The notes under the pieces are model-generated. The model did not search any database. It was given only the letters and a program-made list of their open reading frames with translations, and had not been told where the DNA came from. From NCBI GenBank assembly GCA_964034945.1, contig OZ035960.1:72000652-72064651 (forward strand): a DNA stretch of 64,000 nt, in the 5' to 3' direction. Source of the stretch: Chrysopilus asiliformis. Lineage: Eukaryota; Arthropoda; Insecta; Diptera; Rhagionidae. Below, one piece after another: positions 7,783 through 62,793 of this stretch; positions within the stretch are counted from its first letter, which is position 1, and every line of letters starts with the position of its first letter. Made by a program: the position numbers and the translations under genes.

Positions 7783-7842
7783 TCTACACATCTTGACATT
7801 TGGTAATCATAAAAAATGTATGAGTTTACCGCAACCAAAAAA

Positions 7843-7858
7843 AGCTCTTCTCAGGGCT
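7843..7858 (+). terminator. Histone mRNA 3' stem-loop (SLBP site)
   Basis: AGCTCT-TCTC-AGGGCT forms six base pairs (one G-T) around a four-base loop. It is preceded by CAACCAAAAAA and followed by ACCA, matching the metazoan histone stem-loop layout (6-bp stem, 4-nt loop, CCAAA before, ACCCA-like after). It begins 61 bases after the H1 stop codon. A purine-rich AAAGAG at about 7873 could be the downstream element that pairs with U7 snRNA. The loop reads TCTC, where the usual loop is TTTC or TTTA. Confidence 0.85.
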
Positions 7859-7879
7859 ACCAAAAATATTTTTAAAGAG

Positions 7880-8700
7880 CATTCAAGTTACCGTATGATT
7901 TTGAAAATTCCCCTATTTAGCTCACCTTCGTATCTGTTTGGCTGTCGGGGTCAAATCTTGCAATCCAATTTAGACCCGCTCTCCATCCGATTGACTTGAA
8001 ATTTTGCACACGTCCCATGACAATACCATATTTTCACTTGTTTGAACTTCTAAGGACAAGTGAAGGCTACGCAAGGATGACGTTATTATTCTTTTCCTCA
8101 AATTTTCCTAACAAAAATTTCGGAGTTTTTGGGGTCGCTGAATTCGATTTTAACGTTAAGAAGTCTGTAAGGATAAAGCACAAGACCTTTCGAGAAATAT
8201 CGGTAGAGAGAAATGTCAAAACCCTCGATTTTCGAGATAAGCAATCAGGCATTAAATTCGAGAAAACGAACGAGCCCAAGGGAAAGTTTTGGGAAATTTC
8301 AAATGCATTATATATTTTTAAGTTTATCGCAGTTTTTTGCTTTATGCGGATAAATTCTTTCAAGTGGTATGCTACAAAACCCTTTAAATATTTATTTGGG
8401 TTTTACAAAAAACCACTAATATCAGAATTTTGTATTAATTCTATGTGCGTTCAGTAAAAAATTATTACTTTCGAAAGCACATTTTTTTGTGGTTTTTAGG
8501 TATTTTTAAAAGCCAGCATCCACTTTTTTTTCTTTGGAAATGCGAATTTTGCGATATTTATGCAAAAAAATATTGTTTCGACTACTCTTAAACAATGTCG
8601 AGCACAAAATCGAAATAGGCAATACCAATTCATGGTTTCTCGATCGTACTAGCGTTTGTTCGAGATCCGCAATATGCCCCCTGTTTTTTGTCCAAAAAAG
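7880..8700. other. Non-coding repeat debris
   Basis: The segment contains phrases shared with other dispersed repeats in the window, such as GACTTGAAATTTTGCACA near 7995 and a stretch near 8115-8230 resembling the 122-bp repeat unit. No intact element or gene is visible. The open frames present have no family resemblance. Confidence 0.4.
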
Positions 8701-11718: not shown

Positions 11719-14577
11719 TTAAAGCTTACTCTTCAGAAGCTCCAAACTATTGTTAAAATCAATATTTTCAAATTTCAAATTGAAATTACGGCATATGTTG
11801 GATATAGGTTCGTTAAGACCATAGTTTGTACGATGCATAGCAACATGAAGAAAATTATGACATCTACGTGGACGAGAAGGAGTAAGTATAGATATATTTT
11901 CTAATATTTGAGGCGAGCTAATCAGTCCCGTTAACAATTTGAACATAAAGGTAGTCTTTGTGATACTCCTTCTTTCTTTTAAAGTTTTTAAATTTAGCAG
12001 CGCAAGTCGATCTGCATAAGGAGGTAGACTTAAGACGTTGTTCCAGGGCAGTCCCTTCAGCGCAAAACGACTAAATCTCCTTTGCACCATTTCTATCCGA
12101 TCACAATGTATCGCATAGAAAGGGTCCCAAACTACAGAACAATATTCTAATATTGGACGAACCAGAGAGCAGTATAAGGATTTGGTGACCAAAGGGTCAG
12201 AAAATTCCTTAGACCACCTCTTGATACAGCCCATGAGGGAATTAGCTCGACTCAAAATCGAATTTATATGATCAACAAAAGTAAGAGAAACGTCAAAAAT
12301 TACACCAAGGTCCTTAATTTGTTGAAGCCTGATCAGATCAGTCCCTTCATGGGTATAGTCATAAAATAAAAATCTTTTCTTCCTACCATAACTAAGGACA
12401 GAGCACTTGTCAACGTTTAGTAACATACAGTTTTTTTTACACCACACATAAAAATTTTCAAAGTCATTCGATAAAAGTACACAGTCATTTATGTCACGAA
12501 TAGGGCGGTATATTTTCATATCGTCAGCAAAGAGCAAAATAGAGCTATTTTTTATAATCAAATAAATGTCATTCACATATAACACGAAAAGCATCGGACC
12601 CAGATGGCTTCCCTGAGGTACACCAGAAATATTATATATAGTTTTCGAAGTTTTCCCTCGAAAACAAACTCTTTGAGTACGATCACAAAGGTAAGAGTTT
12701 AACCACTTGAGAAATAATGGGGGAAAACCCAGAACAGAAAGCTTAAACAACAAAATTTTATGCGAAATTGAGTCAAATGCTTTGGCTAAATCAGTATATA
12801 TGCAGTCGACCTGCAGCCCATTCTCGACGATATTTTGGCAGAAAGATGTAAATTGAACTAAATTTGTTTCAGTAGATCGACCTTTTAGAAATCCGTGTTG
12901 CTGCGGAGTAATGATAGAGCTTATATGAAACTGTAACACAGAACAGATAATAGACTCAAATAGTTTAGGAATGGATGACAATTTAGCAATAGGTCTATAA
13001 TTTGCAACATTCGATCTATTGCCTTTTTTGTGGATTGGGATTATATAAGATGCTTTCCAAATATGAGGGAAAATCCCATCACGAAGAGACAAATTAAATA
13101 AATAAATAAGTGGTTTGACAAAACTATTATTACAATACTTAAGCACGGCAGCGGGGACGCCATCGGGACCAGACGAATAATTTAAGTCAAGTTTATTTAT
13201 TGATTCACAGATAGTATGCTCGTCAATGCTCAAATCCTTCATGGTCAAGGTAGTTAAAGGTATTTTAGTCAAGAAATCAAAATAATGCTCATCAATATCA
13301 CAGTTTAAATTATCACTAAACGCGCCTTGAAAAAGATCTGCAAACAAGTTATAGATTTCCTCAGAGTTGTCAGAATTAAAATTTTTCAAAAATAATGACG
13401 TCGGGTAACCGTCGACGTTTCTCGTACTATTAATAAAATTCCAAAAACTTTTTGGATCTCGTTTTAATTTGGTTTTCATGCTCGACACATAGCTATCATA
13501 AGCTTGGCTAGCAGCAGAAAGGAATTTGTCCTTAAAATAACAGTAAATTTTAAAATCGTACTCACATTGGGACTCAACAAATCTTTTCCAGTGTTTCGTT
13601 TTTAGGTTTCGCAGATGCATAATTTCAGTATTAAACCATTTAGGACGTGTTAGAAGATTTTTCTTCGTAAAGTAGGGTACTGTCAAATTTAAAATTTCAA
13701 AAATAATCATATAAAAATTAGAAGTTGCAATGTCAATATTTGCTTCATTTAAGACCACGTCCCAATTAACCATGTCAAAAAGCTTAGACATTTCTGAAAA
13801 GTTAGCTTTTCGAAAATTAAAATCTTGAATATTACAAAAAAGACTACTTGAAAGTGAACAATCAGTATGCAAGAAACAAGTTAACGCTGGATGATGACCA
13901 CTCGCTGGCAGGATTGGAGAGATGCAGGTGCTCACAACCAAAGAAGAAGCATCTGACGTAAATATGAGGTCCAAAACGCGACCATTTGCATTGAGTATGC
14001 TATTAACTTGGCAAATATTGTGTGAGTATAGTTCATCCAGGAATGCAGATTCAGCTTGACATGAAGTACTCGGAATAAGGAAACTCTCGTCGTCACATGG
14101 AGACCAGGAGACTGATGGCAAGTTGAAATCACCAAAAATTAAAATGTCATCTTCAGGATTCATTAGGTCCAGCACAAATTGGATTCCTCTATTAAATGTA
14201 TGGTAGATTTCGATTTGAGATGACGGCGCAGTGTAGAAGATTATTACAAAGATGTTGCGTGAGCATAATTTAAGTTTGACACATAAAAACTCCAATTCTA
14301 GAACGTCAGGCACGTTGACAATACAAGAGTCCAACGACGAACGAATAGCACAGAGAACGCCACCTCCAACTGTAGCATTGTAGGAACAGTGTCTGTCACG
14401 TCGAAAGACAGTAAAATCAGAACTAAAAAGTTCGTTGTTCAGAAAACTGGCATTTAACCATGTCTCAGTGAAGCACACTACGTCAAAGTCGCATCCAGTC
14501 GATGCGCAGAATAGCTGAGGAATTTTTGTACGAATCCCGCCTACGTTTTGGTAGTAGCAGGAGATGCGAGTACTCCG
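11719..14577 (-). CDS. LINE ORF2: AP endonuclease plus reverse transcriptase
   Basis: This frame encodes the enzyme that nicks the target and copies the LINE RNA in place. From 14577 inward the endonuclease starts almost at once (YYQNVGGIRTK), then CFTETW and IFGDFNLPSVSW. The last endonuclease motif reads SGHHPAL where SDH is usual in many relatives. RT motifs follow: SGPDGVPA, NYRPIAKLSSIPKLFESII, GFLKGRSTETN, TDLAKAFDSISH, SGVPQGSHLGP and the catalytic FADD (LLFADDMKIY). The thumb and C-terminal part end in the family-typical LLTGLISSPQIL and a final Arg/Asn-rich segment. The first in-frame AUG is near 14163, inside the endonuclease, and a stop lies upstream at 14607. An intact enzyme therefore cannot start at an AUG in this frame. 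The frame joins ORF1 at a -1 slippery heptamer (14583-14577). I give 14577 as the first ORF2 codon for that reason. Confidence 0.88.
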   Translation of the reverse strand, partial: RSTRISCYYQNVGGIRTKIPQLFCASTGCDFDVVCFTETWLNASFLNNELFSSDFTVFRRDRHCSYNATVGGGVLCAIRSSLDSCIVNVPDVLELEFLCVKLKLCSRNIFVIIFYTAPSSQIEIYHTFNRGIQFVLDLMNPEDDILIFGDFNLPSVSWSPCDDESFLIPSTSCQAESAFLDELYSHNICQVNSILNANGRVLDLIFTSDASSLVVSTCISPILPASGHHPALTCFLHTDCSLSSSLFCNIQDFNFRKANFSEMSKLFDMVNWDVVLNEANIDIATSNFYMIIFEILNLTVPYFTKKNLLTRPKWFNTEIMHLRNLKTKHWKRFVESQCEYDFKIYCYFKDKFLSAASQAYDSYVSSMKTKLKRDPKSFWNFINSTRNVDGYPTSLFLKNFNSDNSEEIYNLFADLFQGAFSDNLNCDIDEHYFDFLTKIPLTTLTMKDLSIDEHTICESINKLDLNYSSGPDGVPAAVLKYCNNSFVKPLIYLFNLSLRDGIFPHIWKASYIIPIHKKGNRSNVANYRPIAKLSSIPKLFESIICSVLQFHISSIITPQQHGFLKGRSTETNLVQFTSFCQNIVENGLQVDCIYTDLAKAFDSISHKILLFKLSVLGFPPLFLKWLNSYLCDRTQRVCFRGKTSKTIYNISGVPQGSHLGPMLFVLYVNDIYLIIKNSSILLFADDMKIYRPIRDINDCVLLSNDFENFYVWCKKNCMLLNVDKCSVLSYGRKKRFLFYDYTHEGTDLIRLQQIKDLGVIFDVSLTFVDHINSILSRANSLMGCIKRWSKEFSDPLVTKSLYCSLVRPILEYCSVVWDPFYAIHCDRIEMVQRRFSRFALKGLPWNNVLSLPPYADRLALLNLKTLKERRSITKTTFMFKLLTGLISSPQILENISILTPSRPRRCHNFLHVAMHRTNYGLNEPISNICRNFNLKFENIDFNNSLELLKSKL

Positions 14578-15488
14578 TTTTTTGAATTTCCCTTGAAGTG
14601 GGTTTTAAGATTTCTAGGCTGAAACTCCTTGACGATCATATCAGAAGGCCAAAAATTTCCGTTTATTACATCCGCAAAGCAATATTCTGGTAGAAAAACT
14701 TTAAATGACGATATAGTTGACCCAGGTTTTTGCATAAACTTGGACGATGCAATTTTATCGCCATCTTTAAATTTATAATTTGATTGGAGGAAACCAAGTA
14801 CGTCGTCTGTTGTCGTTGAGGGATCCAGTCTGGATAAGAACAATACCCTTGGTCGGCTGACTGTTTTCAGTGTTGTTATCGAAGAGATAGCAGTTTTGGC
14901 GACAACATCAACCACTTGGCTATTTCCCGAGTCCCTTTTTTCGTGCTCTGCGAGATCTTCAACCGATTCGACGCCACCATCAGGTAACGACGCTGATTTT
15001 TGTTCCGTGCCAAGTGGACGTCCTGCATCAGCATTTTCCAAAGGAATCCCAGATTTGGAACTGCGCGACTCATTTAAGTCAACGTGGACAAAACTTTTGG
15101 TTGGATTTTGCCTATTTTTTTTGGTGATACTTTTATTGTTTATATTATTCAACGTCGTATTTAGTAAGTCAGAAATCGCATCCATTTTAGAAGTTAACGT
15201 CTCAAGTTTCGCAGTGTAATCGGTTTTTAAAGTATCGATTTGAAGAGTTTGAGATTTTAATATAGTTAAGACATCGCTTAAAGTAATATTGTTGCATTTG
15301 TCGCATCTAAAAGTTACATTTGACGATTTAGCACATGTATCCAATGTCGAAGTAGGCAGTTGGTAGCACTTTAAATGATAGGACCGATAACAAGGTCCAT
15401 CACATGCTATAAATCTACTGGATCTTGACTCCACCTCTCCACATTTTCCACATTTTGGGTCGCAAAAAGAATTACTAGCAAATGCCAT
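14541..15488 (-). CDS. LINE ORF1: PHD-finger, coiled-coil RNA-binding protein
   Basis: This 315-residue protein is the nucleic-acid chaperone-like partner of ORF2. It opens with a C4HC3 PHD-type zinc finger (C13-C16, C29-C33, H38-C41, C62-C65) as in CR1-type ORF1 proteins. A coiled-coil-prone stretch follows (about 69-118, with LKSQTLQIDTLKTDY). A Ser/Asp-rich linker and a C-terminal folded domain (about 213-298, RPRVLFLSRLDPSTTTDDVL... FWPSDMIVKEF) complete it. The C-terminal domain looks like the RRM-type domain of insect LINE ORF1 proteins. The start is the first ATG of a long open frame and places the zinc finger at the N-terminus. The last ~14 codons overlap the start of the ORF2 frame. 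Confidence 0.88.
   Translation of the reverse strand: MAFASNSFCDPKCGKCGEVESRSSRFIACDGPCYRSYHLKCYQLPTSTLDTCAKSSNVTFRCDKCNNITLSDVLTILKSQTLQIDTLKTDYTAKLETLTSKMDAISDLLNTTLNNINNKSITKKNRQNPTKSFVHVDLNESRSSKSGIPLENADAGRPLGTEQKSASLPDGGVESVEDLAEHEKRDSGNSQVVDVVAKTAISSITTLKTVSRPRVLFLSRLDPSTTTDDVLGFLQSNYKFKDGDKIASSKFMQKPGSTISSFKVFLPEYCFADVINGNFWPSDMIVKEFQPRNLKTHFKGNSKNGVLASPATTKT
14577..14583 (-). promoter_or_regulatory. Candidate -1 ribosomal frameshift site A_AAA_AAC
   Basis: In the ORF1 frame the codons are TCA-AAA-AAC-GGA, which gives the heptamer A_AAA_AAC exactly in the X_XXY_YYZ phase used for -1 slippage. After a -1 slip the next codon is CGG (14577), in the ORF2 frame, eight codons before the endonuclease QN motif. 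The overlap window (14604 to 14541) is short and this is its only such heptamer. A GGAG...CTCC pairing and the palindrome GAGTACTC follow directly. I could not define a convincing pseudoknot by eye. Confidence 0.7.
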
Positions 15489-19900: not shown

Positions 19901-20461
19901 TATACCCGTATGGTGAAACCAAAGGGTATATTAACTTTGCCTTACCGTTTGTAACGCCAAGATCTCGTCATCGCACACAAAAATGAATTACACCAGTGTG
20001 TTTAGAATGATGAAAAAAGTTGAATTTAGCATGTCCGTCCGTCCGTCCGTCTGTCTGTCTGTCTGTCCGCCTGTGGCGCGGATTGCGGGCGCACGGATTG
20101 AGCTAGAGACTTGAAATTTTGCGCACATTCGTTTTTCGTAAAATGTGAGGCTAAGTTCGTTAGTGAGCAAAAATGGACCATTAGGGGGGGTACCCCCCAT
20201 ACGAACGAAAACGTTTTTTGCGAATATCTCAAAAACGGTACATCTTATCAAAAAAGCGGAAGAACAAAAGTTATTTAGGATATGATTCTACATAAAACTC
20301 CCATACATCAAAATCCGATTGGAATAAATTTTAAAAAATCTTATTGGAAAGTTTGACTTCAAAGGGGAATTTTGGTACAACTGTTCGAATTTTGATACGA
20401 ATATCACCATACGGGTCTCCAATGATTGCCAGATTGGCAATTATAGCTTTTGTTATGTTTA
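19901..20461 (+). mobile_element. DINE-1/mini-me-like element, family A copy 4
   Basis: Full-length copy with the TATACCC/GGGTATA hairpin, a ~42-bp (GTCY)n tract (20032-20073) and the ATTGCCAGATTGGCAAT hairpin end. It forms the left arm of an inverted pair with the next copy. Confidence 0.82.
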
Positions 20462-20478
20462 TATATAAAGATTATTGT

Positions 20479-20884
20479 TAAACATAACAAAAGCTATAAT
20501 TGCCAATCTGGCAATCATTGAAGACCCGTATGGTGATATTCGTATCAAAATTCGAACAGTTGTACCAAAATTCCACTTTGAAGTCAAACTTTCCAATAAG
20601 AATTTTTAAAATTTATTCCAATCGGATTTTGATGTATGGGAGTTTTATGTAGAATCATATCCTAAATAACTTTTGTTCTTGGACGTTTTTGATAAGATGC
20701 ACCGTTTTTGAGATATTCACAAAAACCGTTTTCGTTCGTATGGGGGGTACCCCCCCTAATGGTCCATTTTTGCCCATTAACGAACTTAGCCTCGCACTTT
20801 ACGAAAAACGGATCCACGCAAAATTTCAAGTCTCTAGCTCAATCCGTGCGCCCGCAATCCGCGCCACAGACAGACAGACAGACG

Positions 20885-21108: not shown

Positions 21109-22654
21109 GAAAAATATCAGTTGTGGTCAACACAAAACTTTCTTCTACAAAATCTACGACCCTGCGCAATTCACGCTAGAGCCCTGTCGCGTTGTCAACC
21201 TAAGACGACCTCCCAATAAATTCTTGGTTTATTCAAAAATATCAAAAACGTACAAAATTTGAGATAACTTGAGAACTGTAAAATATATCAATTTACGGTA
21301 AATGGCAAAAATGTAGAAAATGTTAACATCTTTAATTATTCTTTTAACTGGTTTGTCGAAAAACCGTTAGTTTGCAAGTAATTTGCAAAAATATATTTTT
21401 TTTATATTTTAATCTAAATATCTCAATAACGGTAAAAGATAACGGATAACGGTAAGAAACAAAATTGTGCAGAATGCCATTCTCATTAATTCACTTCATA
21501 CATTCAGTCAGCAAAAACCTGTTAGTTTTCGAGATAATCGCAAAAAACTGTTTTTTTGGAAATAACGGTTTATCTCGATAACAGGTGGAGATATCGAGTT
21601 ATAGCTAAAGACAAAAGTGTGGGAAATTTTATTTTCTCCAAGTTTTGTCATACTTAAGGCCACTAAAAAACGCGTAGTTTGGGAGTAGATCGAGAAAAAC
21701 GAAATTGCGATTTTTGAAAAACCGCCATTTTGGATACTTCCGGTTAACGGATTTCCACCAAAAGTTGATAGGATCGTCCCATTTCAGGACCCAATATGCC
21801 TATAAAATTTCATGGCGCTAGCTCTATTAGTTTTTGAGAAATCTTGTACACAGACTGACAGACTGACAGACAGACTGACAGACAGACTGACAGACAGACT
21901 GACAGACAGACTGACAGACAGACTGACAGACAGACTGACAGACAGACTGACAGACAGACTGACAGACAGACTGACAGACAGACTGACAGACAGACAGACT
22001 GACAGACAGACTGACAGACAGACTGACAGACAGACTGACAGACAGACTGACAGACAGACTGACAGACAGACTGACAGACAGACTGACAGACAGACTGACA
22101 GACAGATTGACAGACAGACTGACAGACAGACTGACAGACAGACTGACAGACAGACTGACAGACAGACTGACAGACAGACTGACAGACAGACTGACAGACA
22201 GACTGACAGACAGACTGACAGACAGACTGACAGACAGACTGACAGACAGACTGACAGACAGACTGACAGACAGACTGACAGACAGACTGACAGACAGACT
22301 GACAGACAGACTGACAGACAGACTGACAGACAGACTGACAGACAGACTGACAGACAGACTGACAGACAGACTGACAGACAGACTGACAGACAGACTGACA
22401 GACAGACTGACAGACAGACTGACAGACAGACTGACAGACAGACTGACAGACAGACTGACAGACAGACTGACAGACAGACTGACAGACAGACTGACAGACA
22501 GACTGACAGACAGACTGACAGACAGACTGACAGACAGACTGACAGACTGACAGACAGAAAGACATTTTTTAAATATGACTCCAATCGACTCAGGAGTGAT
22601 TGGGAAATGTTTTTTAGGCAAAATGAAGAGGTTGAAATTTTTCATGAATACAAT
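21109..22654 (+). mobile_element. 12-mer host element, copy 1 (array of about 59 units)
   Basis: This dispersed element has a ~740-bp body beginning GAAAAATATCAGTTGTGG. It contains TAACGG-rich phrases and the conserved sequence GCGCTAGCTCTATTAG just before a tandem array (21851-22557). A ~95-bp tail (TATGACTCCAATCGACTCAG... TTCATGAATACAAT) follows. The array phrase order, GTCY-type repeat then an 'AGCTCTATTAGTTTTTGAG' block, mirrors family A. The last ~35 bp of the element, present in copies 2 and 3, are missing here. No coding content. Confidence 0.8.
21851..22557. repeat. 12-bp satellite array, about 59 units
   Basis: Unit CAGACTGACAGA, the reverse complement of the TCTGTCTGTCAG unit of the giant array. 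It is nearly uniform, with a few units lacking one tetramer and one C-to-T change (22107 region). Open in several frames only because the unit contains no stop codon. Confidence 0.95.
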
Positions 22655-25000: not shown

Positions 25001-26488
25001 TAGGGCTGCCAAAAATATGCACTAAAAAAGGCGAAATATGCGCATATAATATGCACTAAAAACGGCAAAATATGCACTTAAATATGCACTTTAAAAACAT
25101 TAAAAATCCGAAATATAGTACCTATATTTCACCCAAAATAGTGAACGGAACTTGTTAAAATGTGGTTAATTCGACTTATGTGGAAAATAAAAAAATTGAA
25201 AAAATAATAGTCTGTAAAAAAGATTGACATTTTGACTGACAAAAAATTTTTTTACTTGTTTCTAAATTGCAACTGTTAAATTTTAAGATATTTCGAAAAG
25301 AGGTTCAATACTTCATATTGTCTATGGTATAATCGGGGCTAAAACTTGTAGAAAAATCTCAGTTGTTGCTACCACAAAACTTTCTTCCACACAATCTACG
25401 ACCCTGCGCAATTTACGCTATCCCTATCGTTTTGTCAACCAAAGACGACCTCAAAATGTACAAAATTTGAAATAACTTGAGAACGGTAAAAGATATCAAT
25501 TTACGGTAAAAGGTAAAAATGTAGAAAATTTCATTGCCTTTAATTCGTTTTTTAAAAGTTTTTTCGAAAAACTGTTAGTTTGCAAGTAATTCGCAAAAAT
25601 ATATTTTTTACATTTTAATAAAAATATTTCAATAACGGTAAAAGATAATGGATAACTGTAAAAGACAAAATTGTGCAGAATGCCATTCTCATTAATTCAT
25701 CTCATATATACAGTAAGCTAAAAACCATTTTTTTTTCGAGATAATGGAAAAAAATTATTTTTTTTGAAATAACGGTTTATCTCGATAACAGGTTGAGATA
25801 TCGAGTTATAGCTAAAGACAAAAGTGTGGGAAATTTTATTTTCTCCAAAAAACGCGTAGTTTGGGAGTAAATCGAGAAAAACGAAATTGCGATTTTTGAA
25901 AAACCGCCATTTTGGATACTTCCGGTTAACGGATTTCCACCAAAAGTTGATAGGATCGTCCCATTCCAGGACCCGACATGCCTATAAAATTTCATTGCGC
26001 TAGCTCTATTAGTTTTTGAGAAATCTTGTACACAGACTGACAGACAGACTGACAGACAAAAAGACATTTTTTTAATATGACTCCAATCGACTCAGGAGTG
26101 ATCGGGAAATGTTTTTGAGGCAAAATTAAGAGGTCGAAATATACAATACTTTAATACAATACTTTGTTATACTTCGTAGAAGAAAGTAAAAACACATATT
26201 TATTTATTTTTAATATTTATTCTAGCTGAAACAGTCGAATTATAATTTGAATTGTACAAAAAAAATTTGGTTGTTCATGAAAGTTGTAAAATATGCAACT
26301 AAATATGCATTATATGCATTTATATGCATTTATATGCAAATATGCACTAACGTGTCAAATATGCGAAATATGCAACAACAAGTGACCTTCATTCGCTTCT
26401 AAACTTATTGATTCGGATGAATAAAAAACTCCCGGAGCCGAAATCATAACGAGAAGAAATATGCAAATGCATATTTTTGGCAGCCCTA
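25001..26488. mobile_element. Non-autonomous hAT-like element, interrupted by a 12-mer host element
   Basis: Both ends carry the inverted repeat TAGGGCTGCCAAAAATATGC (perfect over at least 20 bp). They are flanked by a perfect 8-bp target duplication ATAATTAG (24993-25000 and 26489-26496). Eight-base duplications and TAGGG/CAGGG-type ends are typical of hAT transposons. The interior is rich in ATATGCA words and has no transposase. About 840 bp of it (25351-26190) is a later insertion. Confidence 0.88.
25351..26190 (+). mobile_element. 12-mer host element, copy 2 (array of about 2 units), complete
   Basis: This copy has the same body and tail as copy 1 but only about 25 bp of array (26033-26057). 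It ends in AATACTTTGTTATACTTCGTAGAAGAAAGTA broken into two recognisable parts: AATACTTTGTTATAC and GTAGAAGAAAGTA. Near the left end lies ACTTTCTTCCAC, so the ends carry related inverted words. The end can fold through TACTTT...AAAGTA, like the TATACCC...GGGTATA hairpin of family A. It sits inside the hAT-like element. Confidence 0.82.
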
Positions 26489-41342: not shown

Positions 41343-41375
<33 letters not shown>

Positions 41376-41378
<3 letters not shown>

Positions 41379-41514
41379 GAAGGTGGAAATCTTCGAAAGA
41401 TACCGAGCGGTTATGCCGGATTCTTACCGGCTAAAACCACCTTCTTCTCCGTCCATGCACCCCGCGGGACTGCCATTTGGTATTACTTCGCGGGGCTGGT
41501 TCAGCTCTCGCTGC
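41376..41514 (-). promoter_or_regulatory. Structured 3' UTR of Ra
   Basis: The UTR contains hairpin GCCGG-7nt-CCGGC (41415-41431) and a larger stem CCCCGCG...CGCGGGG (41460-41466 with 41489-41495). Both have counterparts at the same places in Rb, with compensating base changes in the first. In R1/R2-type LINEs, 3' UTR structure can be what the RT recognises for target-primed synthesis, so this is the likely role. Confidence 0.7.
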
Positions 41515-44511
41515 TCATCGGGTTGTGAATGCCTTTCTCAGATGCTCCTCGTCTAACAGTTTAATATGTATGGACTGCATTGTGATGTCCACAGCTTTCC
41601 AATTCTCGTGGGACTTTATCATCTCATCTACTATATTTTCTGCAGTTATATTAGTACCGAGTGCAGCTTCCAGTGTTGTTCTTTCTGTTGCAAATCTCGG
41701 ACAAGAGAATAGCACATGTTCCTGGTCTTCCATTACCCCCGTACAACTGGGGCAGTCTGGTGAGTCGTCGATACCGAAGCGGTGCAAGTATTTTCGGTAC
41801 CCTCCGTGTCCAGTTAAAAACTGTGTTAGGTTGAAGCTAACGTCCCCGTGATGCCGGTTCAACCAGTTTCCTATATTTGGAATTAGCTTGTAGGTCCAGC
41901 GGCCGTTTTTCGCTCGTTCCCACTGTTCCTGCCACCGTTTTACGGACTCCTCTCGTTCCGACTTCCGCCGTTCGTTTCTGTCCAATTGTGGGTTCGCTTG
42001 TTTTCCCTTGTACAAGCGACGCGCTTCGTCTGCGAGGATGTCTATGGGGATCATTCCTGCAATCACGCACGCTGCTTGGTCTGACGTTGTTCGAAACCCG
42101 CTGCATACTCGTAGCGCGCTCAACCGGTATACAGTTCTTACTTCCTTTTGGATCACCTTGGTGCTTAGCATTGCGTTCGCCCATATTGGTGCGGCGTACA
42201 AGATGATGGAACTAACTACTCTAGAGACTAGAAGCCTTCTGCTCTGTCGTGGACCTCCAATATTGGGCATCATCTTTGAGAGCGCGTTGCTGACTATTGA
42301 TGCCTTCTCAGCTGTGTATTTTAGGTGAGGTTTAAAGTTGAGTTTTCGGTCAATCATCACCCCCAAGTATTTGATGGTATCCTTGGACTGGATTGTGTGG
42401 TTTCCTAGAGTTACGTTTATTGTCTCCCTTTTACGCCTTTTGCTGATCAGCACAGCTTCAGTTTTCTGCTCTGCTAGTTCGAGTCCAGCGGTTTGAAGCC
42501 ACTGTTTTATTCGACTCATCGTTTCATTTACGTACAACTCTAGTTCATCTGTGAAGCGTGCTACCACGACAACTGCAATGTCGTCTGCGAAGCCTATGAT
42601 TTTAACTTCCTCGGGTACATCTAGCTCTAGTAGTCCATTGTACATCACGTTCCACAGTAAGGGTCCGAGGACTGAGCCCTGAGGAACTCCTGCTGTGACT
42701 TTGTGCCTTTTCGGACCATCGTCCGTGTCGAAGAATAGTTCCCTTTCCGTAAAGTAGCTTCCTATGAGTCTCAATAAATAGTCTGGAATGTTCAGTTCGG
42801 ATAGCGAGCTCATTATTTGGGCCCAACTCGCTGAGTTAAATGCGTTCCTAATATCCAGCGTTACAACTGCGCAATATTTTTGCGAAGCACCTTTTCCTTC
42901 AATTGCTCGTCTAGCCAGATCGGTTACCATGCTGATGGCGTCAATTGTAGATCTCGCTTTTCGGAATCCAAACTGACGGTCTGACAAACCATGCTTTTCC
43001 TCGATTATAGGAAGTAATCTGTTGTAAACGATTCGCTCGAGCAGTTTACCCACCGTGTCTAGTAGACATATTGGGCGGTAAGATGACGGTTCCCCCGGGC
43101 TCTTATTTGGCTTTGGTATGAGAATCAGCTTCTGTTTCTTCCAGGGCGTTGGAAATACTCCCTCTGACACACATGTATTAAATACATCCGCAAACCTGTC
43201 CGGCACAGCCTTAATCGCGAGTTTGAGAGCTTTGTTCGGGATTCCGTCTAGGCCTGGTGCCTTATTGTCCCCCAGCTTCTTGCAGGCCTCCAGCAGCTCT
43301 TCCTTCGTCACCCTGGGTATTTCATCCACCTCTAACGGGGATGGTACTTCCGTCTGAGTATTCGCACTGTGTTGAGGGAATAATGATGAAGTTATTTCCT
43401 TCAGCAAGGCGGGGCAAGTGACTTGTGGCGATCTTTTTCCTTTGACGCGTGACATAACCACTTTGTATGCACCACCCCAGGGGTCTCTGTCTGCTTCTTC
43501 GCATAGTTGGGTGAAGCACTCACGTTTGCTCTTTACGATAGCCACTTGAAGGTTTTTTCGCGCTAGCTTATAAGCTTGTTCTCGTTCTGCGAAATCCGTC
43601 CTTCCTCTACCTCGTTGACTCTGCCTTCTGGCTCGAAGGCACTCGGTTCTAAGATCGTTTATCTCGGAGTTCCACCAGTAGTTCGCCCGTCTATTTTGGG
43701 TTATCCTACGCCTCGGCATCGAGGCGTCGCATGCTTGTTCTAACCGTGAGATGATTTCCTTTGCTTGCTCTGATGCCGATCCTTTTATTTCCTGGTCTTG
43801 TAAGACCTCTTTGAAAGCGTCCTCGTCGATTTTTTTCGTCGACCAACCAGTGGCCCCTACTTTTTTGACTCGTGGCTGCTTTACACGTATATTACCACGA
43901 CCTGTGGAGAACAGGATAGCCTGATGGTCGCTATGAGTGTAGTGTTCGCTAACCCGCCATTTTAAGTCTCTTGCCAGACTGTTGCTGACAAAAGTAAGGT
44001 CCACTATCGATCCTGCTTCGCCCCTCCTGAAGGTGTTTACGCCTCCTGTATTTGCAAGAACAACGTCTAGTCGTGAGAATGCCTGCAGTAAAATGCGTCC
44101 CCTTTCATTTGTGGTTCGACTTCCCCAATCAACCGCCCATGCATTAAAATCGCCAGCTATGATTATTGGATTATGCGTAACTGCATCTATGACCAATTTA
44201 TCTAGCATTAGCTTATATTGCTCAATTGTAGCACTCGGCGGAGCGTAGCAGCTGTAGATGTAAATTCCACCAATTTTGACTCTTACAAAGTTTTCCACCG
44301 GGCTTGCCATGCCTTGTTGTATTGCACGGTTTCCGCATGCCCAAATCGCTGTTTGTCCAACTTTATCTGTTACCCACACGCCGCTATTTAAGTTCTTATA
44401 TGGTTCGCTTATTATAGCGACATCAGCCCCGGTTTCGTAAATAGTTTGTGACAGCAAGTCTTGTGCCGCCTGGCAGTGATTTAGATTTATTTGCACTAGT
44501 TTTAATGACAT
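41515..44511 (-). CDS. Ra ORF2: R1-type endonuclease and reverse transcriptase
   Basis: This 998-residue protein nicks the target and primes reverse transcription there. The endonuclease domain (about 1-215) shows LVQINLNHC, the E of [19 protein letters not shown] and [11 protein letters not shown] motifs (about 420-720) include [71 protein letters not shown] and the catalytic FADD ([10 protein letters not shown]). A C-terminal CX2CX8HX4C finger ([18 protein letters not shown], about 915-935) is typical of the R1 clade. The ATG overlaps the end of ORF1 by ten bases (ATGTCATTAA), which suggests coupled translation. No breaks or lost catalytic residues are seen, so it may be active. Confidence 0.95.
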
Positions 44512-45992
44512 GTCTTGTTGAGTGCCCTTTTATACATTGGGCATCTACTACTTCCTGCCACGTGCTTGCTATCTCTGCCTTCTATTTCTTTACAAAACAT
44601 ACATTCGGGTATTTTTTTGCAGTCTTTGGCTATATGGCCCTTCTCTGCGCATCTCCTGCATAGCTCTGATCTATCGTGTTGGCTGTTGCAAGCTCTTGCT
44701 ATGTGACCAAACTCGAAACATTTGAAGCACCTTTTTAATGCCACCTTTTCCCTAAGGCGGCAGATGACCCAACCGACTCGGATTTTGCCTACTGCTAGTG
44801 CCTTTCGCGCTGCTTCGACTGGGAGACTTATTGTAGCTGTTTTTGTACCACCGTATGCATTTCTAAGGCTCTTTATGGCAGTCTCTGGTATGTCTGCTAT
44901 TTCAAGCTGGTCTATCAGCGCCGTGCAGATGTCCGTCTCCGTGGTTACCTCGTCAAGGTCTTTACACTCTATTAGTGTCTCGTTCCTTTTCATTTTAACC
45001 TCCGCTTGTTGACCCAGGGATTTCGCTACTTGGCTGTGGTAGCTATCTCTATTCCCCTCACTCGACTTCTTGATTTCCAGTAGCAGGTCGCCTCTTTGCG
45101 TTCTCCGAATTCGGCTCACGTTATCTCCCAACTCTTTAAGAGAAGGGTCTGATTTAATTTTACGAAGAATCTCCGCGTATGTAGCTTCCCCTTTCGCCGA
45201 TATTATCATGGCATCTGGTCGACTTCTCGATTGAGGTTTTCTTTTTGCGTCTTTGACTGTGCCTTGTGCCGCTTTAATTGGTTGAGACTTTTCTTCTTTC
45301 GTCGGATTTTGGGGCTTCTTTGGCATGTCCCTTCTTTCTCCCGAGTCTTTCTTTGGCGAACCTTTCTGTCTCTTCGGTGTGTGCATCCGACTGTGGTTGT
45401 CACCCGTTATCTCTCTTCCCCTTTTTTGTGTTCGGTTGATGCTGAGCACTGGTTTAGGAAGCACTATCTTTGGCGTCGTTTGCGTTGCACTCTCCTCCTT
45501 TTTCGGCATTTGAGCGGTTTTTCGAGTTTCAGTTTCCTCTCGAGCCTTGTTGTAGACCCTTCTAATCGCGCGAATCTGCTCCTTGATGGCATGGTGTACA
45601 TTATTTCGGTTCTTTACATATTCCATGAGCTCCACAATCATCACTCCTAGTTTGGAGAACGCATCTTCTTCGTTCTTGGTATTTTTCGCCATATCTACTT
45701 TCGGCGGTGTCTCCTCTGGTGTTTCCGCTTCGGCGGAAATCTCCATATTCTCCTGTTCCCATCTCTGTGGTATCCCTGTTGGGAGCCCTATTGCAGTTTG
45801 AGAGGAATCCATCTCTGCGCCCTGGTCTCTCGTTGCGTTCCTCTTTTCCAGCAAGAGAGATTTGGGACTCCTTTCTAAGGGGGGAGATCTCTGCACCATG
45901 TTGCTTCGCCCAAAAGGGTTCGCATGGTCTTCTCCTATTTTCTCCCTGGCGTTTTCGTCGTTGTTTTTGATGTTTTTTTCTTTTTTATCCAT
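44502..45992 (-). CDS. Ra ORF1: Gag-like protein with CCHC knuckles
   Basis: This 496-residue RNA-binding protein packages the LINE RNA. The N-terminus ([20 protein letters not shown]) and the next ~30 residues are almost shared with Rb. The middle is a highly charged, coiled-coil-prone and basic linker (about 60-270). A folded region follows (about 275-400, with DLDEVTTETDI, SLRNAYGGTKTATISLP). The C-terminus has CFKCFEFGHIARAC and CRRCAEKGHIAKDC (both CX2CX4HX4C) and a third, looser Cys/His finger ending SSRC. This is the R1-clade arrangement. The start is the first ATG after the conserved leader. Confidence 0.93.
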   Translation of the reverse strand: MDKKEKNIKNNDENAREKIGEDHANPFGRSNMVQRSPPLERSPKSLLLEKRNATRDQGAEMDSSQTAIGLPTGIPQRWEQENMEISAEAETPEETPPKVDMAKNTKNEEDAFSKLGVMIVELMEYVKNRNNVHHAIKEQIRAIRRVYNKAREETETRKTAQMPKKEESATQTTPKIVLPKPVLSINRTQKRGREITGDNHSRMHTPKRQKGSPKKDSGERRDMPKKPQNPTKEEKSQPIKAAQGTVKDAKRKPQSRSRPDAMIISAKGEATYAEILRKIKSDPSLKELGDNVSRIRRTQRGDLLLEIKKSSEGNRDSYHSQVAKSLGQQAEVKMKRNETLIECKDLDEVTTETDICTALIDQLEIADIPETAIKSLRNAYGGTKTATISLPVEAARKALAVGKIRVGWVICRLREKVALKRCFKCFEFGHIARACNSQHDRSELCRRCAEKGHIAKDCKKIPECMFCKEIEGRDSKHVAGSSRCPMYKRALNKTCH

Positions 45993-46560
45993 TTTATTAT
46001 ATATGAGTATATATCCAGCGCATCGTGTGCAGGGGGGCGGGCCGTATTAGCCGAGAACGGGTGTACCCTCGGAGATTTTCTCCTACCCCAGTTCCCTGAG
46101 GCTCAGACCTACGCTTAAACAGTCCCGGACTCCGGACGGACCATTGCTCGCCCGTGGCAATGTAGACACTACTCCACATCCAATGCACACTTCCTGATCA
46201 GGGCCCGAGGTGGCTGGTCCCTGCCGATTCCCCACCGTCAGCACATCGGAAGAGTAAACTCACATCAGCCTTCCTCACACCGCATCAAAAGAAAAGAAAT
46301 GCGGTGTTTTGTCTGGCACTCCCCGTGTGACAGCGGGGGCGGCAATCGTTCCTTAAATTTCGGCCGCACCTAACATGGTGACAGACGCCGACCAGTTAGC
46401 CGCCCAATGTGGGTCCGACGCTTCTGGGTTTTACGTTTCGTGATCGGTTTATCAGTTGCGACACTGGAATGTCCACGACTGGACAAACGGTCAGTGCTTT
46501 CCCTGTACGATCATCCCTCCTCCTTTCTCAACCGCGCTTGGGACCGGCTACGGCGGAGTT

Positions 46561-47350
46561 TGTCTGTCAGTCTGTCTGTCAGTCTGTCTGTCAGTCTGTC
46601 TGTCAGTCTGTCTGTCAGTCTGTCTGTCAGTCTGTCTGTCAGTCTGTCTGTCAGTCTGTCTGTCAGTCTGTCTGTCAGTCTGTCTGTCAGTCTGTCTGTC
46701 AGTCTGTCTGTCAGTCTGTCTGTCAGTCTGTCTGTCAGTCTGTCTGTCAGTCTGTCTGTCAGTCTGTCTGTCAGTCTGTCTGTCAGTCTGTCTGTCAGTC
46801 TGTCTGTCAGTCTGTCTGTCAGTCTGTCTGTCAGTCTGTCTGTCAGTCTGTCTGTCAGTCTGTCTGTCAGTCTGTCTGTCAGTCTGTCTGTCAGTCTGTC
46901 TGTCAGTCTGTCTGTCAGTCTGTCTGTCAGTCTGTCTGTCAGTCTGTCTGTCAGTCTGTCTGTCAGTCTGTCTGTCAGTCTGTCTGTCAGTCTGTCTGTC
47001 AGTCTGTCTGTCAGTCTGTCTGTCAGTCTGTCTGTCAGTCTGTCTGTCAGTCTGTCTGTCAGTCTGTCTGTCAGTCTGTCTGTCAGTCTGTCTGTCAGTC
47101 TGTCTGTCAGTCTGTCTGTCAGTCTGTCTGTCAGTCTGTCTGTCAGTCTGTCTGTCAGTCTGTCTGTCAGTCCGTCTGTCAGTCTGTCTGTCAGTCTGTC
47201 TGTCAGTCTGTCTGTCAGTCTGTCTGTCAGTCTGTCTGTCAGTCTGTCTGTCAGTCTGTCTGTCAGTCTGTATGTCAGTCTGTCTGTCAGTCTGTCTGTC
47301 AGTCTGTCTGTCAGTCTGTCTGTCAGTCTGTCTGTCAGTCTGTCTGTCAG

Positions 47351-47352
<2 letters not shown>
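46561..47352. repeat. 12-bp satellite, block 2 (exactly 66 units)
   Basis: The 792 bp between Ra's 5' end and Rb's poly(A) are 66 units in the register TGTCTGTCAGTC, with two point changes (near 47172 and 47272). The integral count shows that both elements joined the array at the same position of the unit. Confidence 0.95.
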
Positions 47353-47381
<29 letters not shown>

Positions 47382-47385
<4 letters not shown>

Positions 47386-47542
47386 GGGAGGTGGAAATCT
47401 TCGAAAGACTCTGGCCGCTTAAGCGGCCAGGTGTGGGATTTTTACCCACTAAAACCACCCCCACTCTTTCTGCTCCCCGCGGGACCACCGCTAGGCATTA
47501 CTTCGCGGGGAGAGATTGCGGCCTACAGGGCCCCTCTTCGCA
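47382..47542 (-). promoter_or_regulatory. Structured 3' UTR of Rb
   Basis: Hairpins TGGCCGCTTAAGCGGCCA (47412-47429), GTGGG-7nt-CCCAC (47433-47449) and CCCCGCG...CGCGGGG (47475-47481 with 47504-47510) lie in the same order as in Ra. The shared flanks are GGTGGAAATCTTCGAAAGA and CTAAAACCACC. Confidence 0.7.
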
Positions 47543-50503
47543 CTACGTTCTGCTGTTTTTCTCCAGTTGTGCAAGGTCCTTCAGTACATAGGCTGCCATG
47601 TCACACACTGCATCCCAATTCTTTCTGCTTTCGAGCATATGCTTCACTATATTTTCTGGGGTCACCAGCTCGTTACAAATGACTTGCAATTTCGCTCGAG
47701 CCCCATTGTACCTCGGGCAGTGGAAAAATACGTGCTCAGCATCCTCGGTTGTTAGTGCACCACAGTGCGTGCAACCTGGATTATCTGCAATCTTAAACCT
47801 ATGCAGGTATGGCTGATAGCTACCATGTCCTGTTAATAGTTGTGTGACATAGTAGTTCACTTCGCCGTGCTTCCTGTTAACCCAGTCCATGATGTTGGGA
47901 ATCAGTCTCCTTGTCCATCGACCCTTTCGGGACCTATCCCATCGCCTCTGCCACTCTTCTATGTTACTGTGTCTGACTTGGCGTTCTCCCTGATTGGTTC
48001 CTTTCTGCTTTCTCTCATAGTAGAGATTCTTCGCTTCCTTTGCAAGAATGTCGATGGGGACCAAACCTGCAATAACATGTGCTGCATCCGTTGATGTGGT
48101 GCGATATGCACTAATTATCCTTAGGGCACATCTTCTGTAGGTTCCCTCTATTGCATGGCAGTAAGAGGACACGCTAGTTTTGTCTGCCCATATTGGCGCA
48201 CCGTACATTATTATGGACCTGACTACTCCACTTAGGAGTCGCCTCTTCTGCTGTTTCGGTCCACCTATATTTGGCATCATTCTACTCAGTTCAGCACATG
48301 TCTGAGCAGCTTTGTTACCAGCATACTCCAGATGCTTCTTGAAGTTCAGCCTGCTATCTATGCAAACGCCTAGGTACTTGAGATGTGGTTCCGTGCGTAT
48401 TGCACAGTCTCCGACCCTTATCATTGCTGTCTCCAGCACCTTGCGACTTGAGACCAACACTGCCTCTGTTTTGTGCTCCGCCAGTTGTAGACCAGCTTTT
48501 CCAAGCCAGCTCCTCACTGCCAGGATAGCAATATTGGTCTTTGACACAGCATCCTCCAAGAATTTCGCCGTAACAACTAGCGCTACATCATCAGCATAGC
48601 CGATTATCTTGACACCGTCGGGTACCGGTACTCGGAGTATGCCATCGTACATGGCGTTCCATAGGAGCGGACCTAAGACTGACCCTTGGGGGACTCAACC
48701 AGTGGTCACATAATACTCCGTCTTTTCGGATGTGTCATATATTAGAACCCTACGCTTAAAGTAGCTATCGACCATTCGGCTCAGGTAAGTGGGTATGTTC
48801 CACCCTGCGAGTGCTTCCGTTATGCGCGACCAATTCGCAGAGTTAAAGGCATTTTTAACGTCCAGTGTAACAATTAGGCAGTACTCTTTTGAGCCTCGGT
48901 TCCAGCTTTTCCCTTCTATGGCCTCTCGTGCGGTTCTTACAAGCTCATCAATGGCGTCAACCGTGGACCTCGCCGTTCTGAAACCGTATTGTCGCTGGGC
49001 TAGTCCTCCTGCTTCCACAATGGCCGCATCCAGTCTGTCACATAAGATTCGCTCCAGAACCTTTCCTGCCGTGTCTAGCATGCAAAGTGGGCGGTACCCG
49101 GAGGGATCCTCTGGTGGTTTGTTAGCCTTTGGAACTAGAACTAACCGTTGTTTCTTCCACCGGTCCGGGAAAACTCCCTCGTTCAGACATGCTTTGTACA
49201 ACTTCATTAATGTATCTGGGTGTAATTTAGCCGCGGTTTTAAAAGCTCGGTTGGGTATGCCATCTGGACCAGGTGCTTTTTTGTCCCCAAATCTTTCGGT
49301 TGCACGTAATATTTCATCCTTCGTAAGGTCCGGGACGTTGAAGTTCTGGTGCTCTGTAGCCAACTGGTTCTCATAATTCTCTTGTCTAGGGAAGAGTTCC
49401 TTCACTATCTCTCTCAGCAACGTTGGGCATCTTGGAGCTGGTTTCCTATAGCATGGGAGTTTTTTCCTTACGAGCCTGTACGCCGTTCCCCATGGCTCTT
49501 CTTCCGCTTGGTTAATTAGATCCAAAAAACTTTTGTTTTTGCTCTCTTTGATGGCGTGTTTCAGCTCTTTTTTTGCGGCCTTGTACTGCTGGTGTAGCTG
49601 TTGGTGTTCTGCGTCATCTCTCGAGCGCTGGTACTTTCTCCGACTTCGGTGGCACTCCTTTCGCAGTTTTGCAATGTGGTCGTTCCACCAATAAACAGGT
49701 TTTTGGTGGCCCCCATAGGTCCTCCTGCTCATTGAAGCGTCACACGCCCCCTCTAGTATTCTCGCGAACTGGTCAGCCATTTCGGCGGCCGAGCCGTTTA
49801 TGGACAGATTATCCAGCATGACTGCAAATGCGTCTGCGGCTTTCCACCCATTGAACATCGGGCCTGTCAATCGTCTTTTGGATGTGTTCCTTGCACTTTG
49901 TAGTTCACAGATGATCGCCTGATGGTCGCTGTGAGTGTATGCATGGCTAACTACCCAGTTAGCTCTTCTGGCCAGTACACTGCTGAGGAAGGTTAGGTCA
50001 ATTACGGAGCCAAAGCCCCTTTTGGTGAAGGTGTGCTGTGTCCCTACGTTCATTAGGGTTAAGTCCAGTGTTCCCATTGCATCCGCTAGGATGCGTCCTC
50101 TCTGTGTGGTTCGGGTACAGCCCCAGTCAGTTGCCCACGCATTAAAGTCCCCAGCAACCACTATCCGGTTCTTACCGCTCGCGTCCAGGACTAAATTATT
50201 TATAGCCAGCTCAAACTCTTCCAGATTTAGGCTGGGCGGCATGTAACAGCTATAAAAGATGATACCTCCAATAGTTGCTCTGGCGTAGTAGTCGCCGCTC
50301 ATCCTATCACAGATTTGTTGAGGTTGGAGGCCGCAAACCCAAATCGCCGCCTTACCGGTGTTATCTTTTTCCCACACTTCATGCGGTTTGCTCCTGTATA
50401 CTTCGCTCAGCACTGCCACGTCAATTTTGAGTTCCCGAACCGTCTGTTCCAGGAGATCCTGTGCTGCTTCACAATGATTGAGGTTTAGTTGTAGTACCTT
50501 CAT
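47543..50503 (-). pseudogene. Rb ORF2: R1-type endonuclease and RT with one in-frame stop
   Basis: The frame runs 50503-47543 (986 codons including one TGA) and resembles Ra ORF2 throughout at roughly half the positions. The endonuclease ([29 protein letters not shown]), RT (KKAPGPDGIPN, YRPLCMLDTAGKVLERI, YGFRTARSTVDAI, VTLDVKNAFNSANW, IIGYADDVAL with YADD) and C-terminal finger (CTHCGALTTEDAEHVFFHC) are all present. The break is a TGA at 48695-48697 where Ra has GGA, at the first Gly of the conserved [10 protein letters not shown] motif. No other damage is visible, so the loss of function is recent or the base is a sequencing error. The ATG overlaps the ORF1 stop as ATGA. Confidence 0.92.
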
Positions 50504-51981
50504 ATCTTACGATAGAGGTCCTTCATCGCCGTCTGGTAGGCTGGACACGCTCTGCTGCCCGTGGGGTGCTCCACGTCTTCCAGTTTCCCCGCTTTACAGT
50601 ATGCGCATGACGCCTTGCCTTTGCACTCTCTAGCATTGTGCCCCATTTCGGAACATTTAAAGCACCTATTGTGCCAGTCCTCTGTGCTATTACACCTTAC
50701 TGCTATATGACCAAATGCCAAGCATTTATAGCAGCGTGTGGGGGATACCTTCTCACGTACTCGGCAAGACGACCATCCAACTTTTACCCTGCAAACGTTT
50801 AACAATGTCGCAGCCATTTGCGCTGGTAGGCTCAACGTTGCCGTCTGTGTTCCACCGTAGGCCTTCCGAAGTGAGCGAATTGAAGTGGGTGGGAGTTCCT
50901 TCAAGGCCTGAATCTGATTACATAGGGCTTCATGAAGCTCATCCTTTGTAGTAATCTCGTCCAGATCTCTGACCTCAACCGTTACCTCATGTGTGAGCAT
51001 CCGCACCTCCGCACTGTCACCTAGGATTTTGCCCATAATTTCTCGGTATTGTGCTGTATTGGGGTCTGCAGGTTTTCCCAGTTCAATGAGTAGGTCCCCC
51101 TTGGCCGTTTTCCTTATCCCCTGGACCGTGTTCCCGATATCCCTCAGCTGTGGTTCGTTTCTGACCTTCTTCAAAATGTCAGCGTAGCTTGCGGCCCCAG
51201 TGCTATGTACCACTATGGCGTCTGGCTTCGCCGGTTTTTTCCTCAGTTTCGCGCGGACGTGGGTGAGTGCGCGGGCTTCCTTCCATCCTGGTTCAACCTT
51301 TTCCTTTTTTCCCTCTTTTTCCCTCCCTTCTACAGCGCTTTTGAGCATCCCTACCTTTGAAGGGGCCTGTCTGCGTCTCTTCGGATTGGAGAAGCCTGAT
51401 GGGCTTGAACTTTCGCTTTCGCCACCATCTCTGCGCCGCTTCGGAGTCTCCGCTGTAAGTTCTACTAGTTCTACCGGCCGGGTTCTATTTAGATCATGCC
51501 GAGATGCTGTGGTTTGGATCGATTTCTCTTCCTTGCGTATCTTGGGTGCCAGTTCTGTCCGGCTCCGCGCGGTCTTCAACGCCTCTGCTTCTAAAGCCGC
51601 CTCCAGCCATGCGTCTTTGATCTGGGCAGCCTTTCTTCTAATTTCGGCATGTATGTTATGCTTGTCCTGCATAAAGTCGATGAGGGCATCGATGTGCCAC
51701 TGTAGCTCCATGAATTTGCCTTTGATGATTACATTCTCCGGCGGTCTAATCTGCATCTTGCTATCCGTGGTCTCCGCCTTTTTCAGCACTTTTGCAGTCT
51801 CTACGGCTCCCTGGTCTCCCGGTGTGTTCCTCTTTTCCACCAAGAGGGGTTTGGGACTCCTTCCCAGGGGAGGGGATCTCTGGACCGTGTTGCTCCGCCC
51901 AAAAGGGTTCACGGTATCATCTCCTATTATCTCCCTAGCATTTTCGTCGTTGTTTTCCTTGTTTTTTCCTTTTTTGTCCAT
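50500..51981 (-). CDS. Rb ORF1: Gag-like protein with CCHC knuckles
   Basis: This 493-residue protein has the same layout as Ra ORF1. The N-terminus is near-identical ([20 protein letters not shown]), followed by a variable charged middle. A folded part contains [14 protein letters not shown] and [17 protein letters not shown]. The knuckles are [14 protein letters not shown] and [14 protein letters not shown] plus a third finger ending GSRAC. The last bases overlap ORF2 in the tetranucleotide ATGA, a stop-restart arrangement known from R1-clade elements such as SART1. The frame is intact. Confidence 0.93.
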
Positions 51982-52114
51982 GTTATATGTAAGTATATCC
52001 AGCGCATCGTGTGCAGGGGGGCGGGCCGTATTAGTCGAGAACGGGTATACCCTCGGAGAGTTTCTCCTACCCCAGTTCCTTGAGGCCCAACCTACGCTTA
52101 AGCGGTCCCGGATT

Positions 52115-62593: not shown

Positions 62594-62793
62594 NNNNNNN
62601 NNNNNNNNNNNNNNNNNNNNNNNNNNNNNNNNNNNNNNNNNNNNNNNNNNNNNNNNNNNNNNNNNNNNNNNNNNNNNNNNNNNNNNNNNNNNNNNNNNNN
62701 NNNNNNNNNNNNNNNNNNNNNNNNNNNNNNNNNNNNNNNNNNNNNNNNNNNNNNNNNNNNNNNNNNNNNNNNNNNNNNNNNNNNNNNNNNNNN
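62594..62793. other. Assembly gap (200 N)
   Basis: Exactly 200 N, which is a placeholder size. The ~57 bases before and after it (from AAATCCGTTAACC to CGCAATTTCG) are nearly the same, so the gap may hide an overlap rather than missing DNA. Confidence 0.98.

Follow-up and report, generated by a model that had tools for sequence, protein, structure and literature searches.

Ra and Rb among site-specific LINEs

Waldo and Mino, two long interspersed nuclear elements (LINEs) of the R1 clade, insert into ACAY and AC repeats, respectively. Ra and Rb, the LINEs considered here, interrupt a 12-mer array in a 64,000-nucleotide stretch of Chrysopilus asiliformis DNA (the window; C1:72000652-72064651, in an assembly of 429,065,045 bases and 42 contigs). 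They are very probably young R1-type LINEs with (GACTGACA)n/(GACTGACAGACA)n as site-specific target and with a proposed cycle of nick priming and ribozyme release.

According to excerpts of previous studies, TRAS1 inserts into TTAGG repeats, where its endonuclease cuts the C-rich strand at a C-T junction (PMC2868851), and R1 makes duplications of 14 bp, although one species shows 11 or 13 bp instead and one group of species has deletions of 9 bp (PMC2718515). Ribozymes at LINE 5' ends are described as well. In excerpts of PMC3774820, R2, R4, Dong, baggins, and L1Tc carry a hepatitis delta virus (HDV)-like ribozyme close to or at their 5' junction, this junction being variable where the cut falls at the end of the element; excerpts of PMC7761336 refer to a study being prepared by Martin and de la Pena on truncated, competent twisters conserved at the 5' ends of the RTE superfamily.

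The Ra/Rb family resembles TRAS1 and SART in its two open reading frames (ORFs), its endonuclease of the apurinic/apyrimidinic endonuclease (APE) type, and its single position in a short tandem repeat, and the C-T cut given in the TRAS1 excerpt parallels AGTC^T here. TRAS and SART differ in having telomeric TTAGG as target, whereas the GACTGACA/GACTGACAGACA GACT/GACA arrays lie mostly mid-contig; a 5' twister-like ribozyme, as predicted for the Ra/Rb family, is not mentioned in the TRAS1 excerpt. R1 is alike in its 14-bp duplications, to be compared with the 12-14 bp that registers suggest here, but its target, 28S ribosomal DNA (rDNA), is another one, and the Ra/Rb family carries a poly(A) tail of about 27 nt; the word 'ribozyme' is absent from the text of PMC2718515. 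R2, R4, Dong, baggins, and L1Tc share the 5'-junction ribozyme and, going by the excerpt, the variable register of the 5' flank, but their ribozyme is HDV-like rather than twister-like. The RTE twisters, as far as that excerpt describes them, belong to the same ribozyme class at the same end of another LINE superfamily. Among the openly licensed PMC papers that the searches listed, titles and abstracts report neither a twister in an R1-type LINE nor a GACTGACA-specific LINE.

Among PDB matches of the endonuclease at E ≤ 0.01 there are five distinct sequences, all of them TRAS1 or R1Bm endonucleases (TRAS1 is the best match, E 6e-10; R1Bm, E 2e-6). R1-clade reverse transcriptases are absent from the PDB matches, and the class assignment rests here on the endonuclease. 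ORF1 has a CCHC zinc knuckle and lies upstream of ORF2, as in the R1 clade; excerpts of PMC4120745 assign a type I ORF1 with CCHC to R1, I, Jockey, and further groups, so this feature is not exclusive. An AlphaFold model of the endonuclease (two sequences) was poor, with a mean predicted local distance difference test score of 47.6, and was not used.

Ra is full length and occupies 41343-46560 on the minus strand, from its 5' end (AACTCC...) at 46560 to the poly(A) at 41343-41375. ORF1 (44502-45992) encodes 496 amino acids including the zinc knuckle, and ORF2 (41515-44511) is open over 998 amino acids and combines the APE-type endonuclease with a reverse transcriptase. The 3' untranslated region (UTR; 41376-41514) contains the motif CTTTCGAAGATTTCCACCT and a structured 3' end made of two or three hairpins and a closing helix. 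Rb (47353-52114, minus strand; poly(A) 47353-47381) has an ORF1 of 493 amino acids with a zinc knuckle (50500-51981) and an ORF2 (47543-50503) whose frame is broken by a single stop, at codon 603; it is 5'-truncated, ending about 420 bp short of full-length Rb-type copies, with L155 as reference.

The preliminary description had called the two elements related yet distinct, in the same orientation, and of the R1 clade, which agrees with two-ORF LINEs that are 47% identical in ORF2 protein and 38% in ORF1 and with an endonuclease matching TRAS1 and R1Bm only. It had also placed both 3' ends at the same position of the unit, and the poly(A) tails (33 nt in Ra, 29 nt in Rb) are indeed followed by GACTGACAGACA in one register, in element sense. 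The intervening array (46561-47353, 793 bp), described as exactly 66 units, contains these 66 units with one base extra and two point variants. The flanks of Ra, said to rejoin seamlessly, are in register (0 mod 12), but since the array period is 12, the rejoining may equally hide a 12-bp duplication.

A block covering part of the 5' UTR and the start of ORF1 (45817-46129 in Ra, 51806-52112 in Rb, both minus strand) is 85.6% identical between the two elements over 313 bp. Where amino acids are identical, third codon positions agree at 0.71 in the first block of 40 codons and at 0.80 in the second, compared with 0.29-0.71, mostly below 0.55, elsewhere. Identity to Ra reaches 90% in the Rb-type copy L155, measured over 494 columns from the first base. 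Judging by these sequences, the 5' block was probably exchanged between the Ra and Rb lineages. At the other end, RNAalifold applied to nine 3' UTRs across groups, with no shuffled control, gave a closing helix and hairpins whose paired bases co-vary (for example GCCGG/CCGGC in Ra, GTGGG/CCCAC in Rb), and this structure is likely to be the one recognised for reverse transcription.

The target site across the genome

A 19-nt motif common to the 3' ends of Ra and Rb occurs at 137 places in the genome with at most two mismatches, compared with five in a reversed control, and the 3' junction was read at 100 of these places (83 exact, 17 with one mismatch). The base run after the poly(A) is GACT at 85 junctions and GACA at five, and at 90 junctions the first 100 bases past the tail consist to at least 80% of GACT/GACA four-mers. 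The surroundings are the octamer (GACTGACA)n at 69 junctions, the 12-mer at 15, and mixed, short, or other sequence at 16. Because the octamer and the GACT junction prevail to this extent, the target is GACA^GACT, mostly within the octamer, and the 12-mer is a minority target. Site specificity as first proposed is thus upheld, but a 12-bp target is too narrow. The argument that the match of two 3' ends was unlikely by chance is weak within the window (by estimate 1 in 24, or 1 in about 6 if only T-ending primers are considered), as the preliminary description itself partly conceded, and is settled by the genome-wide junctions, which lie neither mostly in unrelated DNA nor over all registers.

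Since arrays may duplicate a LINE together with the repeat, clusters (150 kb) were counted as well, and 57 of the 66 include GACT (51 alone, six with another junction), three have GACA alone, and six are other. Array growth is also central to the alternative that the LINEs insert unspecifically and that copies survive or multiply only within safe, expanding arrays. L031 and L032 (Ra 4911), and likewise L040 and L041 (4243), share their truncation point and neighbourhood, as array duplication produces, and copies cluster in the middle of large contigs. Persistence nevertheless leaves one register and one orientation unexplained, with GACT at 65 of the 69 octamer junctions and none of the 100 junctions in a reverse-oriented array, and the 41 singletons on C1-C5 still comprise 32 GACT and three GACA junctions, besides six others. 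We regard unspecific insertion as most improbable.

The register might instead follow from pairing of poly(A) with whichever nick ends in T, without any reading of the repeat by the endonuclease. One A at the junction can belong to either target or tail, and a single T at the primer end could pair with poly(A). However, the nicked strand of the octamer, TGTCAGTC, offers three T ends, a single one of which accounts for 65 of the 69 junctions; at 1 in 4, such a choice has a chance of 2e-34 if copies are independent, which not all are, so binomial figures of this kind overstate the case. Annealing as the cause of the register appears very unlikely. We prefer target reading by the endonuclease, in which ORF2 would nick the strand complementary to the element sense at TGTCAGTC^T, the position of the observed junctions, and the nicked end would prime reverse transcription of an RNA that carries the conserved structured 3' UTR, starting at its poly(A) tail.

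The other strand would then be cut 12-14 bp downstream, giving duplications masked by the repeat. The two array periods (8 and 12) allow the length of such hidden duplications to be deduced. The register was solved for 12 of 15 full-length pairs, those with both flanks in one array type, and differs by 5, 6, 5, 5, 5, 6, 5, 6, and 4 mod 8 in the octamer and by 0, 1, and 0 mod 12 in the 12-mer, so that target duplications of 12-14 bp would fit all 12 solvable copies. The truncated copies L031, L032, L041, L043, L055, and L057 also fit; L040 and L045 were not solved.

To guard against a bias from the 3' motif, copies were also selected by their ORF2 protein (3455 candidates, of which 46 were scored, giving 48 rows; two rows are upstream pieces without a 3' end). 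The 46 readable 3' ends comprise 40 with GACT, one with GACA, and three that border the repeat with a shift or an interruption (L066, L082, and L196), so that 44 adjoin the repeat. Identity to Ra divides these copies, by hand and not by a tree, into about five groups near 97-100%, 81-83%, 68-72%, 53-54%, and 48%, the last being that of Rb. Sixteen ORF2 copies elsewhere in the genome are 99-100% identical to Ra, and with the window's own they make 17 full-length, open rows; on this count the open copies are, as far as sequence can tell, a young and recently active group. Truncation at the 5' end is usual for LINEs, and most copies here are 5'-truncated, since among 50 stretches predicted, starting from the 3' side, to hold the 5' end, only eight contain the ribozyme described below, and the rest are array, other DNA, N, or truncated; the stretches of L060, L126, and L149 were partly or wholly N and were left out of the judgement. 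IMG/VR and GTDB genome contigs gave some pattern matches but no confirmed relatives.

Several observations speak against target-specific insertion as set out above. Ten of the 100 junctions are off-pattern: L034 lies in ACAC repeats and L163 in unique DNA, the repeats around L090 and L117 are degenerate, L164 and L170 are off by one base, and L040, L066, L082, and L169 are shifted or interrupted. Thirty-seven of the 137 motif places, presumably older copies, are outside the read set, the octamer and 12-mer counts are raw and not scaled to octamer abundance, and neighbouring copies may stem from one insertion through array growth. L199 and L205, two of the 46 ORF2-selected copies, have no poly(A) beside a repeat. 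As for the duplications, deletions of 10-12 bp are equally compatible with the registers (mod 24), and the truncated Rb-type copies L035 (2 mod 8) and L036 (7 to 2 mod 8) do not fit.

L034 (C1:64280480-64283498) is an older Rb-type copy, with 94.7% identity, in an ACAC/ACAT-rich, (ACACAY)-like repeat; it is possibly an off-target insertion or a link to Waldo-like targets, which the preliminary description had considered. Waldo and Mino are alike in using simple repeats, and they differ in that the site of the Ra/Rb family is fixed to GACA^GACT. The ACAY repeat, the usual target of Waldo, does not describe this family, L034 being the one copy in 100 in such a repeat.

If the proposed specificity is correct, it constitutes a new microsatellite target for R1-type LINEs, and the many near-identical copies would allow direct tests of it. 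With the open ones among them, experiments in vivo or in vitro come within reach, and the way in which a compact endonuclease that reads GACT/GACA repeats chooses its DNA could be set beside that of TRAS1 and R1Bm.

A putative twister-like ribozyme at the 5' end

Rfam models gave 74 matches over the window, with a single ribozyme among them, twister-P1, which scores 32.4 bits at 46511-46565 of the minus strand, with an E value of 0.0042 when the whole window is searched and 5e-5 for 801 bases. Its 46-nt twister-like core (46515-46560, minus strand) forms the exact 5' end of Ra, and it is this position that carries the case for a ribozyme. The score proves little by itself, because matches that score higher, though also below threshold, look spurious: microRNA (miRNA) families reach 101.6 bits on the palindrome and the array of the window, which counts against a reading from scores. 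These miRNA matches were rejected, by judgement, as products of array and palindrome.

A 24-nt stretch of the core was found at 23 places in the genome and at none in a reversed control; 21 are exact, and two, including the Ra of the window, have one mismatch. At 22 of the 23 the element starts exactly with AACTCC directly after a GACT/GACA array, L194 being the exception. The flank before AACTCC ends in GACTG (10 copies), GACTGA (five), GACT, GACA, or GACAG (two each), and GACG (one). Twister ribozymes cleave just 5' of a conserved A, hence copies that start with AAC correspond to the predicted cleavage product.

Further twister-P1 matches score 36.0-41.6 bits in seven of nine stretches, and 38.2-40.8 bits in 11 of 15 stretches at E ≤ 2e-5, a limit at which L184, L190, L191, and L194 gave none. 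The two stretches of the nine without a match, L124 and L127, are predicted 5' regions of the Rc/Rd type. The Rb of the window gave no ribozyme match at its 5' end, which its truncation explains. The sequence downstream of the core falls into three variants, of nine, eight, and six copies, which 3' ends or ORF2 tie to Ra, the 53% group, and Rb; no ribozyme-bearing copy was identified in the 82% and 70% groups.

The conserved twister core (AAC..., CCGGUCCCAAGCCCGG, AAAG..GGAGGG) is present, and P2, P4, and two short pseudoknots can pair, the pseudoknots as possible pairs only. Helix P1 is not formed, with one or two of its four pairs in the alignments shown. According to excerpts of PMC5408937, a twister lacking P1 cleaves at nearly the wild-type rate, and the position preceding the cut shows little or no conservation. 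Against a ribozyme stand all scores, which at 32.4-41.6 bits lie below the Rfam gathering score of 67.2 for RF03160, as well as a search by eye for a P1 using the array as one strand, in which none formed.

The low scores also favour an alternative in which the 5' motif is a conserved promoter, or a site bound by protein, with a chance likeness to a twister, and with 21 of the 23 core matches identical, the fold cannot be tested by covariation. Such a sequence would still have to contain the conserved core and to place the predicted post-cut base first in 22 of 23 copies, with differing registers upstream, and we hold this explanation to be unlikely. In the preferred reading, a ribozyme, the element RNA would be made at least partly by read-through from the array, and the P1-less twister-like ribozyme would free it at its 5' end; full-length copies would start with the cleavage product AAC for this reason.

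The 12-mer array and its surroundings

The target array of the window, the 12-mer (GACTGACAGACA in element sense), extends over 28534-62449 and is split by Ra and Rb. An exact 36-nt run of the 12-mer matches the genome 46,547 times, roughly 0.56 Mb, compared with 186 matches for the reversed control. One dispersed repeat borders this array and that at 21857-22547; its copy at 25351-26192 contains just 27 bp of the 12-mer, and its copy at 21109-22638 holds a 0.7-kb array. The arrays appear to be the expanded interior, an internal minisatellite, of this transposon-like repeat, because it is found both with 27 bp and with 0.7 kb of 12-mer and because its edge was seen at five of 30 loci searched (L045, L049, L050, L053, and L060). 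Its three copies in the window (21109-22638, 25351-26192, and 28406-63449) lie within 42 kb and contain about 0.7 kb, 27 bp, and more than 20 kb of 12-mer, respectively.

As arrays and elements are intermingled, the LINEs could themselves have made the arrays as tail-derived repeats, in which case their association would reflect origin and not targeting. This is scarcely credible, given that the same repeat occurs with no LINE inside it (59 units at 21857, 27 bp at 26032), that arrays flank full-length copies on both sides, and that about five groups share arrays.

With the arrays taken as a target, it is rather probable that an R1-type LINE lineage acquired a P1-less natural mini-twister as an exchangeable 5' module, now in at least three diverged groups, and lives off read-through of a satellite that itself arose by expansion within another transposon-like repeat. 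The module would then be a convergent counterpart, at a microsatellite target, of the HDV-like ribozyme of R2 in rDNA. If so, site-specific LINEs have recruited differing ribozyme classes to set the 5' end of the RNA read through from their targets.

The LINE copies lie mainly mid-contig (C1 60-83 of 117 Mb, C2 56-77 of 116, C3 42-65 of 115, and C4 40-45 of 68 Mb), with outliers. Some are crowded on the same arrays, as at C4:21188471, 21193670, and 21198743, and the small unplaced contigs C11, C16, C18, and C27 are rich in copies.

The window has the character of animal DNA, going by a histone H1-like ORF and further retroelements, and other features of it were also recorded. Just past the array there is a run of N at about 62594-62793. 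Long ORFs of retroelement look at 1-2580 and 3273-4202 (minus strand) presumably belong to a BEL/Pao long terminal repeat retroelement. A histone H1-like ORF (7117-7782) is followed by a weak match to the histone 3' stem-loop (25.6 bits against a gathering score of 34), the whole spanning 7117-7883. The long palindrome at 20361-20579, to which several miRNA models match below threshold on both strands, is probably an inverted-repeat transposon. Another LINE, at 11719-15488 on the minus strand, carries a PHD finger in ORF1, which is a CR1-type feature according to excerpts of PMC4120745.

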